Virus record (IMG/VR): IMGVR_UViG_3300004369_000196
Coordinates: 1 to 20,344 of that record
Length of the DNA stretch: 20,344 bases
Strand: one strand, 5' to 3'
DNA from: a virus
The position numbers and the translations under genes were made by a program. Numbering within the stretch: the first letter of the stretch is position 1; the number at the start of each line of letters is the position of its first letter. Below are positions 58-10,474 of this stretch, piece by piece. The notes under the pieces are model-generated. The model was not told the origin of the DNA, made no database searches, and saw nothing but the letters and a program-made list of their open reading frames with translations.

Positions 58-543
58 TTATGTTGCAAAGTGCCGTTCGTCACTCAGTGCCGCGTCAATG
101 ATCGCTGCTCGCTCATCATCAATCCCAATCCGCAGCCCTTGCAGAATGCCCTGAAGAAATCCGATCGCGGTTGCCTGCCTCGTCATCCCCTGCCAGTCCC
201 TGCGGTTCCATTTTGCCACCATCTCGTCGCGCGTCTCTCTGTCACCGTAAAGCACCAGCGGGCAGCACTCACCCGGCTCGCTGTCCTCAGTTCCACACGC
301 CGCGTTGAATGTCGACGGCGATGATGGATGCGGCAGTTCCACGATCTGACCGGGTCTACCACAGAACGGGCAAGGCAACATAACAAAGCCTTCAACCGGA
401 CGGCTCGCTGCTGTCTCCATGTAGTCAGCCGCATCCTTTAACGAACCGAACGTCCTGTGGGCGGCAGCGTGAGAAGCGGACCCGCCCATAAACACAGGCT
501 CTTTGGGCGGCTCTGAGAAAAATTGTTTCTGGTGGTCTGTCAT
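58..543 (-). CDS. Lar-like restriction-alleviation zinc protein
   Basis: The 161-residue product carries the hallmark of the phage/prophage Lar family: a CPFCG motif at residues 58-62, further cysteines at 83, 93 and 94, and a closing WNRR at 112-115. This pattern binds zinc in the family. Lar proteins moderate host type I restriction, but many phage relatives are named only by this fold, so the activity is inferred. An unrelated N-terminal part (1-50) and a C-terminal helix-like tail (120-161) make it longer than a minimal Lar domain. The start has a good ribosome site (GAAGGAAG) about 12 bases upstream. It is the last gene of the minus-strand block and has its own strong promoter, so it can be expressed apart from the genes upstream. 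Confidence 0.7.
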   Translation of the reverse strand: MTDHQKQFFSEPPKEPVFMGGSASHAAAHRTFGSLKDAADYMETAASRPVEGFVMLPCPFCGRPGQIVELPHPSSPSTFNAACGTEDSEPGECCPLVLYGDRETRDEMVAKWNRRDWQGMTRQATAIGFLQGILQGLRIGIDDERAAIIDAALSDERHFAT

Positions 544-2946: not shown

Positions 2947-3813
2947 ATGCTCAGCGTTCGGATAGAGGCAGATAGCATCTTCAACGACAAAAGGATCACG
3001 ACGCTGGTTGCCACGTACCCACGGATCATTCACTCTGAAGTTCTGACTCACCGGTCGTTTTGTCGCAATGCTTCCTCATCGAGAGCGATCCCGATTAAGA
3101 AGATGATCGCAGACGTTGAGGCCGACCCCTTCTACCCGATCCGGTGGGGAAAGAGTCAGAAGGGGATGCAGATGTCAGACGAAGAAGCCAACGCATCCCT
3201 GTGCAGGCAGCAGTGGAAGAATGCACTGGACGCTGCGATACGAGTGGCGAGGAGTCTCAGCAACGACCTCGATGTGCATAAGAGTCTGGCCAATCGACTG
3301 CTCGAACCGTTCTCCTACATCACGACCATCATCACCGCCACAGAATGGGCCAACTTCTTCAGGCTCCGAATCCACCCGGATGCAGAGCCCCACATGTTCC
3401 AGCTCGCAAAGCTGATCCACGACAAGATCGAAAAGTCGACGCCCGTAGAATGCCCCGTCCACGCGCCGTTCCTTCGACCCTTCGAGAAAGAACACGCTCT
3501 CAGCCTCTACATGTCACAGGGCGTACGAAGCGTTCAGCTCGAAGAGTGGGCCCACGTTTCGGCTGCTCGGTGTGCGAGGGTTTCCTATCTGACACACAGC
3601 GGAAAGATGGATCGCCAGAAGGACAAAGAGCTTGCCCGGAGACTGCTTCAGGGATCGGGGTTTGGGCACTGGTCGCCGTTTGAACATTTTGCGTTCTCTT
3701 ACTGCGGAACGCACACGAACTGCCCGTACCGTGGCTGGCAGACCTACCGAGCCACACAGCACAATGAGAACCTTCCCGGACACATTGGAGAATACGCATG
3801 GCGGAAAAAATAA
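2947..3813 (+). CDS. thyX: Flavin-dependent thymidylate synthase ThyX
   Basis: ThyX converts dUMP to dTMP using methylenetetrahydrofolate and reduced FAD, giving the phage its own thymidylate supply. The 288-residue product holds the signature region at 34-47 (THRSFCRN followed by SSSR), a variant of the RHR-x7-S motif with Thr in place of the first Arg. It also has the helix with EWANFFRLR, and near the C terminus the WSPFEH block and a Y-R-G-W-Q-x-Y-R block typical of the family. Length is slightly above the usual 220-260. The ATG has a strong AGAAGGA site upstream. It is the first gene after the divergent promoter pair, and its end overlaps the next gene by 16 bases, so the two are translationally coupled. 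The family call is secure; the T-H-R variant deserves an activity check. Confidence 0.93.
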   Translation: MLSVRIEADSIFNDKRITTLVATYPRIIHSEVLTHRSFCRNASSSRAIPIKKMIADVEADPFYPIRWGKSQKGMQMSDEEANASLCRQQWKNALDAAIRVARSLSNDLDVHKSLANRLLEPFSYITTIITATEWANFFRLRIHPDAEPHMFQLAKLIHDKIEKSTPVECPVHAPFLRPFEKEHALSLYMSQGVRSVQLEEWAHVSAARCARVSYLTHSGKMDRQKDKELARRLLQGSGFGHWSPFEHFAFSYCGTHTNCPYRGWQTYRATQHNENLPGHIGEYAWRKK

Positions 3814-4637
3814 TCGCACAGGACATCAACGATGCCTCGGCCCGAGTGCGAGAGCTGTTCGGAGAACCCGACGGAGTGGATGAAACGGACACTGACCTGC
3901 GAATGAAGACCGCGCTTGCAATCTGCATCCAGAACCCGGACATCTCGACGAACACCCACATTGCGCACAACCCCGCCGCCGTTATTCTGGACGCCCTTGG
4001 CGTACTGGCCGACGTGCCTGTGAACAGCCCGCTCACATGCACACTGGGTCGACCACGACAACCAATCGACCGCACTCCCTGTGTGATCGACGTTCCATAC
4101 ATCGCGATCGAGCAGGACTGTGCCGGGCCATTCAGGATTTGCTACAGCGTGAGAGAAGGCTCTGGGGCTGACTGGCTCGATTGCCACCTGTTCTACAACG
4201 AAGCAGAGACGTACGATTTTCTGGTTCAGCATTTCGCAATAGCCAGCGTCTGTTTGCAGTTCATGGCAGAGTCACGAAACATGTACATCGGGAACCTGCA
4301 TATCCGGGTACTTCGGCCCACCATGCCGAAGCAGATGCTGTCGCACTTTGACTGGATCAGTCCGTCACTGACGATGGACCTGACCCCGCTTCGAACCGGC
4401 CCCTTTCTACAATCCACAGGTGCGTTGACTGAACTCCGCGACGTGCTGACCTGTGATGAACCACCGACAGGGATCAGTTCACCGTTTATTCGAAAGCTGG
4501 TCGCTCCAGCGATGATGATCCAGAACGCACTCAACAAAGACGACCACGTTGCTGTGGATATTCTTCGCAGATCACTCCCCGTTGGCCTTGACTGGACTGT
4601 GGCCATCAATGCTTTTCTCGAACTGAAAGGAATCTGA
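3798..4637 (+). CDS. Divergent thymidylate-synthase-fold protein lacking catalytic motifs (proposed)
   Basis: This 279-residue protein has no obvious motif, but by eye its layout follows ThyA-type phage synthases/hydroxymethylases. An ICIQNP segment (42-47) with NPAAVILDALGVL (58-70) resembles the N-terminal aEvlW helix. A strand-rich part around 105-120 sits where the PC nucleophile motif should be. Residues 127-167 match, without gaps, the E. coli ThyA region from LSCQLYQRS to the VGDF segment. LHIR (167-170) replaces the LHxY motif. The catalytic Cys is replaced (PFR at 111-113) and the phosphate-binding RSxD becomes NEAE, so it should not be an active synthase. It overlaps the end of thyX, and its start has a GGAG site. 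Fold assignment is my inference; it may instead be an unrelated orphan. A role as a ThyX partner or regulator is speculation. Confidence 0.5.
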   Translation: MAEKIIAQDINDASARVRELFGEPDGVDETDTDLRMKTALAICIQNPDISTNTHIAHNPAAVILDALGVLADVPVNSPLTCTLGRPRQPIDRTPCVIDVPYIAIEQDCAGPFRICYSVREGSGADWLDCHLFYNEAETYDFLVQHFAIASVCLQFMAESRNMYIGNLHIRVLRPTMPKQMLSHFDWISPSLTMDLTPLRTGPFLQSTGALTELRDVLTCDEPPTGISSPFIRKLVAPAMMIQNALNKDDHVAVDILRRSLPVGLDWTVAINAFLELKGI

Positions 4638-4638
4638 A

Positions 4639-4935
4639 ATGCTGGTACTGACAAGGAAGAAAAACGAAAAGGTTGTGCTCTCTGTGCCGGGACTGGAGTC
4701 CCTCATCGAGATTACATGCGTCTCGCTCAATGACGATCGCGTCCGACTAGGTTTTGAGGCACCGCGAGAAGTTACCATCCACAGACTGGAAGTTCAGGAA
4801 GCCATAGATGCCTCGCCACAAAGCAGGAACGAAGGAAACTCAACAGATACTCTTCCAGCCAGACTCGGAATGGAAGATGCCCAGAATGGTGGACCTGCCC
4901 CCGAAGTGGAGCCGGTACAAGAGGATCGGACTTGA
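4639..4935 (+). CDS. csrA: CsrA/RsmA-family RNA-binding regulator with extra tail
   Basis: The N-terminal 55 residues are a clear CsrA domain: MLVLTRK at the start, RVRLGFEAP at 34-42 and the RNA-contacting VTIHRLEV at 45-52, where Arg49 is equivalent to Arg44 of E. coli CsrA. CsrA dimers bind GGA motifs, usually in hairpin loops near ribosome sites, and block or alter translation. The protein is 98 residues, against about 60-70 for hosts. Residues 56-98 are a polar tail whose DNA is also read as the start of the polymerase gene. An AAAGGA site precedes the ATG and the gene begins one base after the previous stop. Phage CsrA could retune host metabolism or time the phage genes. Several phage starts here have GGA-containing sites, but I cannot assign targets. 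Confidence 0.9.
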   Translation: MLVLTRKKNEKVVLSVPGLESLIEITCVSLNDDRVRLGFEAPREVTIHRLEVQEAIDASPQSRNEGNSTDTLPARLGMEDAQNGGPAPEVEPVQEDRT

Positions 4936-6760
4936 TACAGAAACTTGCTGCCCTGATCTGAAGACACTCGGACCTGCGGTGAGGCGTAACGGCTTCATCG
5001 CAGGGGTGTCGTTTGCCATCGACGACGAAAAGAAAAGCGCGTGGTATCTGCCCATTGCACACGCTCTGGGCCCGAACCTGAATCGTGAAGCGGTTGTGCG
5101 GTATCTCCGTGATCAGGCGGCTGAGTTCACCGGAGAAATCGTCGGAGCCAACCTGCAATATGACATTGACTATCTGGCCCAGTATGGGGTGGTGTTTCGT
5201 CGTGCAGTTTTTCGTGACGTGCAGGTTGCCGCTGCGTTGATCAATGAACTGGAAGACGGCTACTCACTGGGGGCCATCGCGGAACGGAACGGCTTCGGAG
5301 GGAAGAGCGAGAGCCTGCTGGGAGAGGCTGCCGGGGCGTTCCGTCTCGATAAGAAGAAAGACCTGTGGCGAATGCCCGCGAAGTTCGTCGGGCCGTACGC
5401 GGAGGATGACGCCGCACTGCCGTTGAAGATTCTTGAGAAGCAGCAGAAAGAAATTGACCACCAGAACCTTCAGCGGGTCTTTGACCTCGAATCGCGATTG
5501 CTCCCCGTCTGTATAAAGATGCGAAGGCGGGGCGTTCGGGTAGACTTCGACAAACTGTCCGAAATCGAATCCCGGATGCTGGAGATTGAACAGACGCAGT
5601 GTGCTCACATCCGAGAGCTGACGGGCTACCGTTTCGGCATCGAGGATATAGGCAAAGCATCGATCACGGGCCGGTTGTTGGAGGAACACTGCGGGTGCGT
5701 TCTGCCCCGTACTCCCAAGTCCGGCGAATACATGGTCAGTAAAGACGTCCTCGCTGCTGTGGACACACCGCTGTCACACGCGATCGCCAAGCAGAAGCGA
5801 GCCAACAAAATCCGCACGACGTTCGTCGCCAGCATCCGAAAGCATTCGGTCGAAGGCCGTATCCACTGCACGTTCACTCAACTCCGCAAGCAGCGCGAAG
5901 ATGGCGACACGGTGGGTGCTGCGTTCGGCAGACTCTCGTCCTCAAACCCGAATCTCCAGCAGCAGCCTGTCAGAGACCCATACTCTCACGACTGGCGGTC
6001 GATCTATCTGCCTGACGAGGGGGGTATGTGGGGCTGTCTGGACTACTCAGAACAGGAGCCCAGAAACCTGCTTCACTGGGCTGCACTGACAGCGGAGCTT
6101 GTGCTGCCCCGGCAGCACCCCATCAGGAAGGCCATCGAATTATCACTGAAGAAATACTGGGAAGACCCTCGTGTGGACGGTCACCAGATGATGGCTGACC
6201 TGATCGGCTGGAAAGGCAAGGAAGGGCGAACACGAGCGAAGGCGGTACTCCTCGGCCTCTGTTACGGCATGGGAGGGGTCAAGCTGGCGGGAGAACTTGG
6301 GCTGAAGACTATCCTGATCCGTGGCAGGGATGGCAAACTTCGAGACGCTCCGGGAGCAGACACTCTTGAAATTCTGGATACGTTCAATGCCCGTTTGCCG
6401 TACGTTCACTGGATGGCGGGGGTCGCAGAAAGGAAAGTCAAGGAACGTGGATATCTCTCGACGTTGAGCGGTCGCCGTTGCAGGTTCCCGCAGGACCGTT
6501 GCGGGAACTACGAGTGGACCCACAAGTCCTTGAACCGTTTGATTCAGGGGAGTGCTGCGGACCAGACCAAGACCGCGATGGTTGAAGCGGATCGTCAGGG
6601 ATTCCGACTACAGCTACAGGTTCACGACGAGCTGGACCTGACCGTCTACTCCCCACAGGAAGCTGAACAGCTTGCGGTACTGATGCGGGACGTGATGCCG
6701 TTGAAGTCTCCAAGCAAGATTGATATCGAGACCGGACCTAACTGGGGCGAAGTAGCGTAA
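4808..6760 (+). CDS. polA: Family A DNA polymerase with 3'-5' exonuclease
   Basis: This 650-residue polymerase replicates the phage genome. The proofreading domain shows DTE at 43-45 (Exo I), N-L-Q-Y-D at 115-119 (Exo II) and Y197-x3-D201 (Exo III). The polymerase domain shows motif A DYSEQEPR from 412, motif B with Arg474, Lys478, Tyr486 and Gly487, and motif C QVHDELD from 604 with His606-Asp607. There is no 5'-3' exonuclease domain, as in T7-like enzymes. The residue equivalent to E. coli Phe762 is Leu482. The first ATG has AGGAAG six bases upstream but overlaps csrA by 128 bases; ATG codons at 4877 and 4886 would shorten the overlap and still keep Exo I. No other replicative polymerase is in the window. 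Confidence 0.95.
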   Translation: MPRHKAGTKETQQILFQPDSEWKMPRMVDLPPKWSRYKRIGLDTETCCPDLKTLGPAVRRNGFIAGVSFAIDDEKKSAWYLPIAHALGPNLNREAVVRYLRDQAAEFTGEIVGANLQYDIDYLAQYGVVFRRAVFRDVQVAAALINELEDGYSLGAIAERNGFGGKSESLLGEAAGAFRLDKKKDLWRMPAKFVGPYAEDDAALPLKILEKQQKEIDHQNLQRVFDLESRLLPVCIKMRRRGVRVDFDKLSEIESRMLEIEQTQCAHIRELTGYRFGIEDIGKASITGRLLEEHCGCVLPRTPKSGEYMVSKDVLAAVDTPLSHAIAKQKRANKIRTTFVASIRKHSVEGRIHCTFTQLRKQREDGDTVGAAFGRLSSSNPNLQQQPVRDPYSHDWRSIYLPDEGGMWGCLDYSEQEPRNLLHWAALTAELVLPRQHPIRKAIELSLKKYWEDPRVDGHQMMADLIGWKGKEGRTRAKAVLLGLCYGMGGVKLAGELGLKTILIRGRDGKLRDAPGADTLEILDTFNARLPYVHWMAGVAERKVKERGYLSTLSGRRCRFPQDRCGNYEWTHKSLNRLIQGSAADQTKTAMVEADRQGFRLQLQVHDELDLTVYSPQEAEQLAVLMRDVMPLKSPSKIDIETGPNWGEVA

Positions 6761-6976: not shown

Positions 6977-7425
6977 GCAACGACATTGATTTTAGAAAAG
7001 CGGCTGTGGACATGGTCGCCCAGTGCGTCTGCAAAGATCGCAACGCGACCTACGGCAGTGTCGAAGACAACTTCCGCAACATTGCTGACCTGTGGTCGTG
7101 GTGGCTGCGGAAACGTGGAATACTCACCGAACCAGATGCCGGTCTGACTGTGCTGGACGTGGCCCAGATGATGGGGATGGTGAAGATCGCCAGAAAGCTG
7201 ACCAGCCCGGAACATCTCGACAACTGGATCGATGACGCGGGCTACAGTCTGTGCGCCGCCTCTTCACTGCTTAAAGAGCATGGCTGGGAACCACCCCCCG
7301 GTCCCGGAATGAAAGGTACGACTCGTGACCAACGAGAACCGCAACATGCGGCAGAGGGTTGTCAGGATGCTGAAACCTCTGGATGCGATGGCTGTGGACA
7401 ACCCGGCGTGTCCGGGAACCCCTGA
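6973..7425 (+). CDS. DUF6378-family protein
   Basis: Residues 6-100 match the DUF6378 pattern found in many phages: a DRNATYG turn near 22-28, a DNFRNIADLW helix, the MGMVKIARKL helix and a final DDAGYSLCAA segment. The family is all-helical with conserved acidic residues and recalls MazG-like nucleotide pyrophosphohydrolases, but its function is not established. I chose the ATG at 6973, which overlaps the previous stop and has a GGAAAGAG site; a longer frame to 6868 has no support. Residues after about 108 are a Gly/Pro/Cys-rich tail of about 40 residues that overlaps the next gene by 101 bases and may exist only because that frame lacks an earlier stop. Its place beside polA and thyX suits a nucleotide-pool or DNA role. 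Confidence 0.78.
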   Translation: MSNDIDFRKAAVDMVAQCVCKDRNATYGSVEDNFRNIADLWSWWLRKRGILTEPDAGLTVLDVAQMMGMVKIARKLTSPEHLDNWIDDAGYSLCAASSLLKEHGWEPPPGPGMKGTTRDQREPQHAAEGCQDAETSGCDGCGQPGVSGNP

Positions 7426-7810
7426 CGTGTACTACATCAACGGGTGGATCGAGCTGAAAGAAGCTGATGCTTGGCCTGTTCGCGAGGACACCCCACTGCG
7501 AATCCCCCACTTCAAACCGCACCAGCGAGCGTGGGCCATTCGACACATTCACAAGGGCGGAGTATGTTCCCTGCTGCTCAAGGTCGGAAAATTTGAGTGG
7601 TATCTTCTTGACGGCTGGTTTTCTGCTCATAGACTAGGCAAAATAACCCGTGCGGAGATAAGAGCTGCCGCACTGGAAGTATTCGATAAAGGCTTGGAAA
7701 GCGAAAGGTTCATAGCATGTCTGCGAAGTTTAAGAGGCCGAGACTCGTCCTCACCGACGCTGAGCGATTGCTCTTGCGACGAAGACGCCTCGGCATTACC
7801 CAGCGGGTGA
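7325..7810 (+). CDS. VRR-NUC-like PD-(D/E)xK nuclease
   Basis: The 161-residue product shows a compact nuclease core: GTPD at 31-34, then ELK at 43-45, forming a PD-(D/E)xK active site, followed by a PHFKPHQRAW helix (conserved Gln) and a VCSLLLKVG strand. This layout matches small phage VRR-NUC/Holliday-resolvase-like enzymes that cut branched or damaged DNA, sensible next to a polymerase and primase-helicase. The start is GTG with a GAAAGG site eight bases upstream; an ATG seven codons inside is the alternative. The nuclease fold ends by about residue 105, helices run to about 130, and the last 30 residues are Ser/Asp-rich and lie over the start of the next gene (94-base overlap). The family call rests on motif spacing. 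Confidence 0.65.
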   Translation: MTNENRNMRQRVVRMLKPLDAMAVDNPACPGTPDVYYINGWIELKEADAWPVREDTPLRIPHFKPHQRAWAIRHIHKGGVCSLLLKVGKFEWYLLDGWFSAHRLGKITRAEIRAAALEVFDKGLESERFIACLRSLRGRDSSSPTLSDCSCDEDASALPSG

Positions 7811-8115
7811 TGGCCCAGAAGCTGAGGATAACGACCTGCACCTATGCGTCCTACGAGAAAGGGGAGGAACGACAGTTCCGTCACGCCCCTCCGCTGGAGA
7901 TACCTGAAGTGCTGGACCTTCAGGACAATGAACTGATCGTGATTCTGCGACTTCGTGCGAAACTGACTCTCGCACAGGCTGCGGATGTCGTCGGCACCAG
8001 CCGCGCCACATACGTTCAAATCGAGGGTGGCGGAAGAGTTGCGGACAAGTGGGCCTCTTACACGATCACGCAATTGTTGGAGCAACAGCCAGATGGAACT
8101 GAAACCGCAGACTGA
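7717..8115 (+). CDS. Double helix-turn-helix (XRE-like) regulator
   Basis: This 132-residue protein contains two tandem Cro/CI-type helix-turn-helix units. The first covers about 17-51 (LGITQRVMAQKLRITTCTY) and the second about 73-107 (LTLAQAADVVGTSRATYV). Each has the classic T/L-x-AQ-x-A first helix and a recognition helix ending in Tyr. No enzymatic or dimerisation domain is present; two HTHs in one chain could recognise an asymmetric or two-part operator. The ATG has a GAAAGG site, and later starts would destroy the first HTH, so the overlap with the nuclease gene looks real. It is a candidate for controlling the promoters with dyads at 10840-10859 and 15149-15172 or the overlapping pair near 2900, which is inference from its being the only clear DNA-binding repressor-type protein here. 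Confidence 0.82.
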   Translation: MSAKFKRPRLVLTDAERLLLRRRRLGITQRVMAQKLRITTCTYASYEKGEERQFRHAPPLEIPEVLDLQDNELIVILRLRAKLTLAQAADVVGTSRATYVQIEGGGRVADKWASYTITQLLEQQPDGTETAD

Positions 8116-10474
8116 CATGGTCGTGCGGTATCTGTCTGACTTCCTTCCGAACGAACGATGGGCTCTCACCGCCATCCATGCCGACCGGAAGGGGACTCTT
8201 GCGCGAACATTTCGGGCAGACACCGCCGAAGAAATGAAGGCGTGGATCGAGAAGATGAATCTCGACAACCACAATATGTACTTTCAGATATGCGTTACCA
8301 ACAAAGACCTGAACGAGAGCAACGCACAACTTCGAGACGTGGACGCGGTCACGTGGCTGCACGTGGACATGGACCCGAAGAACGGTGTATCTCCCGAAAT
8401 CTGCAAAGCGCAGTCGGTCAGCGTTCTGAAAACCGGAAAGGATGGAATTCCACCGCCAACCGTGATCGTTGATTCGGGCGGCGGGGTGCAGGCGTTCTGG
8501 AAACTGAGGGAACCGATACAGATCGGAGGTTCTGTCGAAGCGGGTAACGCCGCGAAACGACACAACCAGCGACTCGAAATCGTCTTTGATGCGGACCACT
8601 GCCACAACGTCAACCGACTGATGCGGCTGCCGTACACGGTCAACTGGCCCAATGCCATCAAGCGGCGGAAGGGTCGGGTGCCCTCGCTGTCTACTGTGTT
8701 GTCGTACAAGAAAGAGAACGTCTACGACATCACGATGTTTCCTCCGTTACTGACTACGCAGACGCAGTTCAGTGCAACGGAAACAAGTGAGCTGGAAATC
8801 CCGGACAACGTCCCTCGGGTCGATCTGGACGACCTCGATACCTACGAGGTGCCTGATCGGATCAAAGTGATCTGTGTGCAGGGTCGGCATCCGGATGAAG
8901 TCAAGGAAAAGGACAACAGCCGCAGCGCGTGGCTGTTCGATGCGGTACTTAAACTGGTTCGGTGTGAGGTGCCGGACTCGATCATCTACTCAATCATCAC
9001 TGACCCCGACATGGGTATCGCAGCGTCCATTCTGGACAAGGCCAACCCGGACAGGGAAGCCCGACGCCAGATAGCGAAGGTGAAGCAGTTCGCTGTTGAT
9101 CCCCAACTGGTCGAGATGAATGAGAGACACGCTGTTATTCGGACGTGGGGCGGTAAGTGCAGTGTGGTCGAAGAGCTGTACGATGCCGTCATGGGAAGAA
9201 CTCAGCTTGTCAGAACGTCGTTTGCAGATATTCGGAACGCCTACTGCAATCGACTGGTCCGGGTCGGGACGAACAAGAACGACGAACCGGTCTACAAGGA
9301 ACTCGGTGCGTGGTGGCTGAAACACCTGAATCGCAGGCAGTACGACACGCTGGTCTTCGCCCCCGGAAAAGAAGTTCCGGGTGCGTACAACCTGTGGCGA
9401 GGCTTTGGTGTGCAGGCCATACCGGGAGACTGTATGCCGTTTCTGAGCCACGTTCGGGAGAACCTGTGTGGTGGGGACGAACAGTATTTCAACTTTCTCA
9501 TTCGCTGGATGGCGAGGGCCGTACAGAAGCCCGACCGACCGGGTGAGGTTGCTGTGGTGCTGCGGGGCGATCAGGGAACGGGTAAGAGTTTTTTCGCCAA
9601 AGAGTTCGGGTCTCTCTTTGGACGACACTTTTTAACAGTGAGCGACAGCAAGCATCTGGTGGGCAGTTTCAACGCCCATCTGCGGGACTGTGTTCTGCTC
9701 TTCGGTGACGAGGCGTTCTTTGCCGGAGACAAGGCTCACGAGTCGACACTCAAGACTCTGATCACGGACAACCGGATCAGAATTGAGGGAAAGGGGATAG
9801 ACACTGAGGAAACCAACAACTACCTGCACCTGATCCTTGCCAGTAACAGCGACTGGGTCATTCCCGCAGGCGCTGTGGAAAGGCGATTCTTTGTGCTGGA
9901 CGTGTCGAACAACAAACGACAGGACAGCAACTACTTCAAGCAACTTGCAGACCACATGGAGAACAAGGGTGGCCGGGAAGCTCTGCTGCACTACCTCCAG
10001 TGTCTGGACATCACCGACTGGAATGTTCGGGCAGTACCTCAGACAGAGGCATTGGCCAAACAGAAAATCTGGACACTCGACCCAATGCAGGAGTGGTGGT
10101 TCACCAAGCTGGACAGTGGGTCCATCCTGCCGGATGTTCCGCACTGGCTTGAAGAGGTGGAGTGCATAGAACTGACTGATGATTATCTGGACTACACCCG
10201 CAACTACGGCGTCGTCCGAAGGGGCAACGCCACCCGATTGGGCCGGTTCCTGCAAGGGGTCTGCCCACAAATGGAGCGGACGCAGGTGGTGCGGATCGAA
10301 GAAACAGAGTCCAACGGGGCTCAGGAATTCAAAAAACGAAGGCCATACGTTTATCGCTTTCCCAGCTTCGAGACCTGCCGGTACGAATGGGAACAGAAGA
10401 TGGGCAAGATGATGTGGTCTACAACCATAGAGGACGAGAAAAATGCAAGATCAGAATCAGAGCGGGATGACTGA
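8093..10474 (+). CDS. Primase-helicase: AEP/PrimPol-like domain plus SF3-like (DUF5906) ATPase
   Basis: With the ATG at 8093 (GGAG ten bases upstream, 23-base overlap with the regulator) the protein has 793 residues. The N-terminal part is an archaeo-eukaryotic-type primase: DMD at 92-94 after a hydrophobic strand, SGGG at 128-131 with AFW at 134-136, then a D/H-rich block ending in NRLMRLP and a TVN turn at 182-184. The usual His of the sGxGxH motif appears as Gln133. The C-terminal part is a superfamily-3-like helicase: Walker A GDQGTGKS at 492-499, Walker B with Asp539-Glu540, and the LASNSDW sensor at 582-588. Such fusions prime and unwind phage DNA ahead of the polymerase. A small winged-helix-like tail follows. 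A longer frame starting at 7985 has no supporting ribosome site. Confidence 0.9.
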   Translation: MELKPQTDMVVRYLSDFLPNERWALTAIHADRKGTLARTFRADTAEEMKAWIEKMNLDNHNMYFQICVTNKDLNESNAQLRDVDAVTWLHVDMDPKNGVSPEICKAQSVSVLKTGKDGIPPPTVIVDSGGGVQAFWKLREPIQIGGSVEAGNAAKRHNQRLEIVFDADHCHNVNRLMRLPYTVNWPNAIKRRKGRVPSLSTVLSYKKENVYDITMFPPLLTTQTQFSATETSELEIPDNVPRVDLDDLDTYEVPDRIKVICVQGRHPDEVKEKDNSRSAWLFDAVLKLVRCEVPDSIIYSIITDPDMGIAASILDKANPDREARRQIAKVKQFAVDPQLVEMNERHAVIRTWGGKCSVVEELYDAVMGRTQLVRTSFADIRNAYCNRLVRVGTNKNDEPVYKELGAWWLKHLNRRQYDTLVFAPGKEVPGAYNLWRGFGVQAIPGDCMPFLSHVRENLCGGDEQYFNFLIRWMARAVQKPDRPGEVAVVLRGDQGTGKSFFAKEFGSLFGRHFLTVSDSKHLVGSFNAHLRDCVLLFGDEAFFAGDKAHESTLKTLITDNRIRIEGKGIDTEETNNYLHLILASNSDWVIPAGAVERRFFVLDVSNNKRQDSNYFKQLADHMENKGGREALLHYLQCLDITDWNVRAVPQTEALAKQKIWTLDPMQEWWFTKLDSGSILPDVPHWLEEVECIELTDDYLDYTRNYGVVRRGNATRLGRFLQGVCPQMERTQVVRIEETESNGAQEFKKRRPYVYRFPSFETCRYEWEQKMGKMMWSTTIEDEKNARSESERDD

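Follow-up and report, generated by a model that had tools for sequence, protein, structure and literature searches.

The stretch of viral DNA analysed here (the window, a virus record of 20,344 bases) encodes a FAD-dependent thymidylate synthase, ThyX, and immediately behind it a protein that we call X, whose gene starts 16 bases before thyX ends (Table 1). ThyA and ThyX are non-homologous replacements of each other. The two are anticorrelated in jumbo phages (PMC7824862), and in the literature searched, the coverage of which is incomplete, we found no report of an inactive phage ThyA or of a pair formed by ThyX and a dead ThyA. The original prediction for this locus was precisely such a pair: a ThyA-fold protein deprived of its catalytic residues and coupled to ThyX. 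What, then, is X, where did it come from, and for what could it have been kept?

Table 1. Features of the window around thyX and X (all coordinates refer to the window).
Feature	Position	Strand	Remarks
thyX, FAD-dependent thymidylate synthase of the phage type; circular permutant of the canonical form	2947-3813	+	288 aa; Pfam Thy1, PHROG 85
X, pseudo-ThyA, very probably a dead homolog of YuA-type ThyA/dUMP hydroxymethylase	3798-4637	+	279 aa
X residues 59-77, NPFFHLMESLWMLAG helix remnant	3972-4028	+	catalytic Glu position is D65
X residues ~78-111, short low-confidence stretch	4029-4130	+	ThyA counterpart: SDDG/GAYG-RW, Arg-Arg, PCN active-site segment
X residues 127-167, strand and helix of the ThyA core	4176-4298	+	RSND replaced by NEAE
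X residues 219-279, helical domain at the C-terminus, most strongly retained	4452-4634	+	F230, P237, D265, W266
csrA-like gene, same operon as X	4639-4935	+	Pfam CsrA E 2e-17
DNA polymerase A, Mesyanzhinovviridae type	4808-6760	+	library matches; polymerase-led search and tree
DUF6378 gene			between polymerase and PHROG 2165 gene in the listed order
PHROG 2165 gene ('DNA helicase' in PHROGs)	7325-7810	+	collinear with YuA-like replication module
HTH regulator	7717-8115	+	collinear with YuA-like module
Primase/helicase	7985-10474	+	collinear with YuA-like module

We compared X to known protein families. On its own, the window protein finds no match in Pfam, PHROGs, NCBIfam, the PDB, phages or IMG/VR. 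Its ortholog from an 8.5-kb IMG/VR contig (L002-X, at L002:827-1687; 31% identical, BLASTP E 2e-34 for the pair) by itself matches the thymidylate synthase family phrog_5131 (E 5e-4) and, weakly, YuA-type thymidylate synthases/deoxyuridylate hydroxymethyltransferases. When the two sequences were combined with a third from a Planctomycetaceae MAG (L111-X), the resulting profile aligned over its full length with a profile of 38 phage ThyA proteins (255 columns, probability 96.4, E 1.2e-9); the best of 40 column-shuffled ThyA profiles reached 2.9%, and the reversed profile and ThyX 0.2% each. Run against the 14,640 ORFs of all loci, the X profile found, outside its own family, only ThyA proteins from the YuA-type clade among the matches listed (best E 2e-6); because many ThyA loci had been fetched beforehand, the number of these matches is uninformative and only the E-values count. 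Reciprocally, a deep ThyA HMM recovers L002-X (7.5e-9) and L111-X (9e-4), both ranking ahead of every reversed or shuffled decoy. The same HMM gives E 15 for the window protein (P0001) alone, and single-sequence hhalign 22%, confined to residues 219-276. Full-length similarity to ThyA is thus found for the three-sequence profile and not for the window protein by itself, whose assignment runs through its two orthologs. Two other sets of hits were discarded: the designed repeat proteins 6xr1/6xr2 align to a 31-residue helix only, their scores being sums of ~2-5 bits per repeat, and matches of L002 to Staphylococcus endolysins were judged to be due to chance. The controlled profile match, together with a thyX-X arrangement repeated in two diverged relatives, bears out the prediction of a ThyA-family protein coupled to ThyX, and its relative is, more precisely, the Mesyanzhinovviridae (YuA-type) dUMP hydroxymethylase/ThyA. 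The alignment of residues 127-167 to the ThyA core, made by eye at the outset, also holds, except that it contains one gap and is therefore not ungapped as first described.

None of the ThyA active-site residues is left in X. Among 73 near-invariant positions (conservation of 90% or more across the 38 ThyA sequences), 13 are kept in X, 21 in L002-X and 12 in L111-X. None of R30, E68, Y103, R130/R131, C152, R173/S174/D176, N185 and H215/Y217 is retained in the window protein (YuA-clade numbering; we take the roles of these residues to be those of their counterparts in E. coli ThyA). The position of the catalytic cysteine in the PC motif is occupied by G110 in X and is a gap in both orthologs; the phosphate/pyrimidine motif RSxD reads NEAE in X and EEAE in L002, and is a gap in L111; the HxY motif has become N166/H168. 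X also lacks the arginine pair that is donated across the ThyA dimer, with T93/P94 or gaps in its place. Residues ~78-111 align to ThyA mostly as gaps or non-matching residues, and the alignment of the whole middle region (~78-126) is uncertain. A TPC sequence at residues 93-95 was considered as a possible nucleophile of an active ThyA and rejected: neither ortholog has it, and it does not line up with the ThyA cysteine. The best retained ThyA residues are located in the C-terminal domain (Table 1). The predicted loss of the cysteine nucleophile and of the RSxD motif is thus confirmed by the alignment, and X, as judged from its sequence, is very probably a catalytically dead pseudoenzyme. Since the binding residues are gone, a role in dUMP or folate sensing, as had initially been proposed, is not supported.

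We next consider the predicted structure. An AlphaFold model computed with the three X sequences only has a pLDDT of 44 and no ThyA match, and its Foldseek results are meaningless. Adding 38 ThyA rows to the alignment raises the pLDDT to 80.6 (pTM 0.80), with values below 50 at residues 78-109. The best structural match of this guided model, for which a viral structure library was also searched, is the CMP 5-hydroxymethylase MilA (PDB 5b6e, 5jnh; Z 19.2 over residues 6-279), extra C-terminal helices included; the core fold of the E. coli and L. casei ThyA enzymes is matched with Z about 11-12. MilA, at ~10% identity, is an active enzyme, and the canonical ThyA proteins differ from X in having catalytic residues and a different C-terminus. 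As the ThyA rows carry the fold, the guided model, including its match to MilA, only shows that X can be modelled in this way and is not independent evidence. MilA dimerizes through its six strands together with helices 1, 5 and 6, and its extra C-terminal domain, to which X residues 219-279 are equivalent, consists of five helices located away from the active site (PMC5175136). No confident different fold was found; the guided model is ThyA/MilA-like, and the unbiased one is not confident.

The partner gene encodes a recognizable ThyX (Pfam Thy1, E 5e-12, 46.4 bits against a cut-off of 24.8; PHROG 85 thymidylate synthase, E 8e-55) that stays below the NCBIfam equivalog cut-off (51.6 versus 87.9). 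Phage-type ThyX turned out to be circularly permuted, with the order of the canonical ThyX fold not kept: residues 12-173 of the phage family profile match canonical positions 85-246 (E 1.4e-6), and residues 174-249 match positions 29-95 (E 2e-7). The swapped order was seen in 29 of 33 phage-type ThyX proteins tested individually and the normal order in none (loci: window 2947-3813, also L003-L015, L022, L112-L142); 1,023 phage records contain relatives, and no report of the permutation was found in the literature searched. At the three X-bearing loci, 47 of 54 family-conserved ThyX positions are kept in all three proteins. The trio shares few changes (Ser to Cys/Val at position 39, Gln to Ser at 113), and a further one, VHKS, is also present in L003, which has no X. 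It is thus unlikely that X repairs a broken ThyX active site, an idea that these comparisons do not support. Several other thymidylate synthase genes were unusual in their architecture. A ThyX in an Eremiobacterota MAG (L116, 4531-6735) has an intein-like insertion exactly inside the THRxF-SRNA active-site motif, with a Cys at its start and HN at its end before SRN. Seven Planctomycetota genomes (G003, G005, G007, G022, G023, G025, G040) have ~540-610 aa ORFs with two Thy1 matches each, which look like tandem double ThyX proteins. The ThyA of phage EKU1 (L019, 1223-2393) is annotated as two overlapping genes, probably owing to a frameshift in the record.

Both relatives of the window locus were reached by a ThyX-led search. 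The ThyX of L002 is 60% and that of L111, a 3.3-kb contig, 48% identical to the window protein, and L111-X (L111:1649-2341, 230 aa) again lies directly behind ThyX. The gene order thyX-X-csrA-polA is common to all three loci, and in each X begins with an ATG that lies within thyX or at its end, an arrangement predicted to couple their translation. The csrA-like gene between X and polA spans ~1653-1841 in L002 and ~2325-2540 in L111; none was detected in the fetched YuA-like ThyA loci. Of the 34 distinct phage-type ThyX sequences that we collected, 3 are accompanied by X; the remaining loci are devoid of it, so that ThyX in general does not need X. Alignment-driven ortholog scans returned L002 as the sole find in viral contigs and nothing in genome contigs, and 392 Planctomycetota genomes contained no X beyond the known L111 MAG. 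The viruses carrying X are a small group, with Planctomycetes as their probable hosts.

The surroundings of X point to its origin. X occupies the place in the replication module, ahead of polA, that ThyA has at YuA-type loci. A polymerase-led search, which is blind to ThyA, returned YuA-like phages first (45-51% identity), and in those opened (CN1, Sonora, RHph_TM26, AIIMS-Plu-RaNi, Epa5) a ThyA gene is located shortly upstream of the polymerase; CN1 and Sonora share the gene order of the window onward to the primase. The same polymerase is found close downstream in 60 fetched ThyA loci, which were collected via ThyA and hence are not an independent sample, as the polymerase-led search is. The polymerase tree groups the three X loci in a single clade that nests within the ThyA-bearing phages and is joined to its ThyA-bearing sisters with a support of 0.97, some deeper nodes being weak. 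From this nesting, X is most simply a dead descendant of the ThyA of these phages, and ThyX the newcomer. We regard the descent of X from a ThyA-type enzyme as very probable and the later arrival of ThyX as likely; a syntenic remnant is a better reading of X than a partner recruited anew. The deoxyuridylate hydroxymethyltransferase/thymidylate synthase of the Mesyanzhinovviridae (YuA gp17, phrog_5131 type) shares with X the position before polA, a full-length profile match and the C-terminal helical domain. X differs from it in the loss of the active-site residues and of a large part of the Arg-pair/Cys segment, and in being preceded by ThyX. A hydroxymethyltransferase has been reported in all analysed Mesyanzhinovviridae (PMC11946847), to which the related X-bearing phages would form an exception. 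A possible course of events starts with a functional YuA-type ThyA upstream of the polymerase. A circularly permuted phage ThyX would then have been acquired directly before it and taken over the pyrimidine C5 chemistry, after which the ThyA body may have lost its active-site segment while its strands and helices, especially those of the C-terminal domain, were kept under selection. Elsewhere in the window, the best NCBIfam model for the polymerase is that of the aminoadenine polymerase DpoZ, with 277 bits against a cut-off of 500, a score so far below the cut-off that we make no claim of Z-DNA for this phage; positions 58-543 (- strand) weakly match a Lar-like restriction alleviation protein (PHROG 599, E 6e-7).

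Loss of catalysis could mean that X is simply a disappearing relic, which became dispensable when ThyX came and has not had the time to lose its reading frame. Its rapid divergence agrees with this, X being 31% identical between the window and L002 compared with 60% for ThyX and 66% for the polymerase, as does the further shrunken L111-X, which is compatible with continuing reduction. However, 4-fold degenerate sites of the window and L002 X genes are at chance identity (0.26 versus 0.26 expected), whereas second codon positions are 59% identical; all three frames are open, the N- and C-termini are similar, and the proteins remain 26-31% identical among the three loci. Saturated synonymous sites alongside three open frames argue for purifying selection and not for a fresh pseudogene. 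On these comparisons X is likely to be maintained by selection, and we consider a dispensable relic unlikely. Overall, we think it somewhat probable that X is a dead, position-conserved ThyA descendant behind an acquired ThyX, kept as a non-catalytic partner. X would then be a structural or activating subunit that dimerizes through the old ThyA interface and may dock ThyX, the replication machinery or both by way of its dimer core and C-terminal domain. This docking role we put forward tentatively; the stricter version, that the dead ThyA is now an obligatory partner of an unrelated, permuted ThyX and holds it in a DNA-precursor/replication complex, is speculative and rather improbable.

What could such a partner do? 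X might be an activating subunit of this ThyX, for catalysis or for folate/flavin supply, working across unrelated folds in the manner of a prozyme. The two genes are adjacent, overlapping or abutting, at all three loci, and dead relatives are kept with active enzymes in the trypanosomatid prozymes of DHS (deoxyhypusine synthase) and AdoMetDC, the case of DHS being a precedent for activation by the dead partner (PMC3663545). There, however, the dead partner is a paralog of the same fold, while ThyX and ThyA are unrelated and the ThyX-X partnership is putative; given that other phage-type ThyX proteins manage without X and that those of the trio retain most family-conserved positions, an activating role seems rather doubtful. 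ThyA enzymes bind their own mRNA, and X could have become an RNA-binding autoregulator, placed as it is between thyX and the RNA-binding regulator csrA in an order conserved at all three loci; that order may reflect the operon only, and we consider this role quite unlikely. Active, new chemistry on the ThyA fold, for which the flavin-dependent dCMP hydroxylase of phage HY126 (PDB 9iqu, among the structural matches of the guided model) sets an example of reuse, appears very unlikely, as no candidate catalytic set is common to the three orthologs. Nor were modification genes recognized among the window genes scanned, and the base-modification role suggested early on finds no backing in this fragment of a genome. 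The other early suggestion, inhibition of the host ThyA, would have X form dead heterodimers. In the dimers of ThyA-type enzymes the two subunits share their active sites, as shown for MilA (PMC5175136), and X is without the arginine pair given to the partner subunit. Against this stand the very low identity of X to any cellular ThyA, a Planctomycetota sample in which ThyA is no more common than ThyX, and the MAG holding L111, where we found a canonical ThyX and no ThyA (with the caveat of binning or assembly gaps). If, as this MAG indicates, the host lacks ThyA, its inhibition is unlikely, and we regard this role as highly improbable.

In our reading of X as a retained, non-catalytic ThyA descendant, the locus is a visible case of enzyme replacement in which the displaced protein persists without its chemistry, an unusual natural example. 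It makes testable whether a non-catalytic job of a nucleotide enzyme in a replication complex, such as docking or regulation, can outlive its catalysis. Under the stricter version with an obligatory partnership, a pseudoenzyme would serve its own non-homologous successor.
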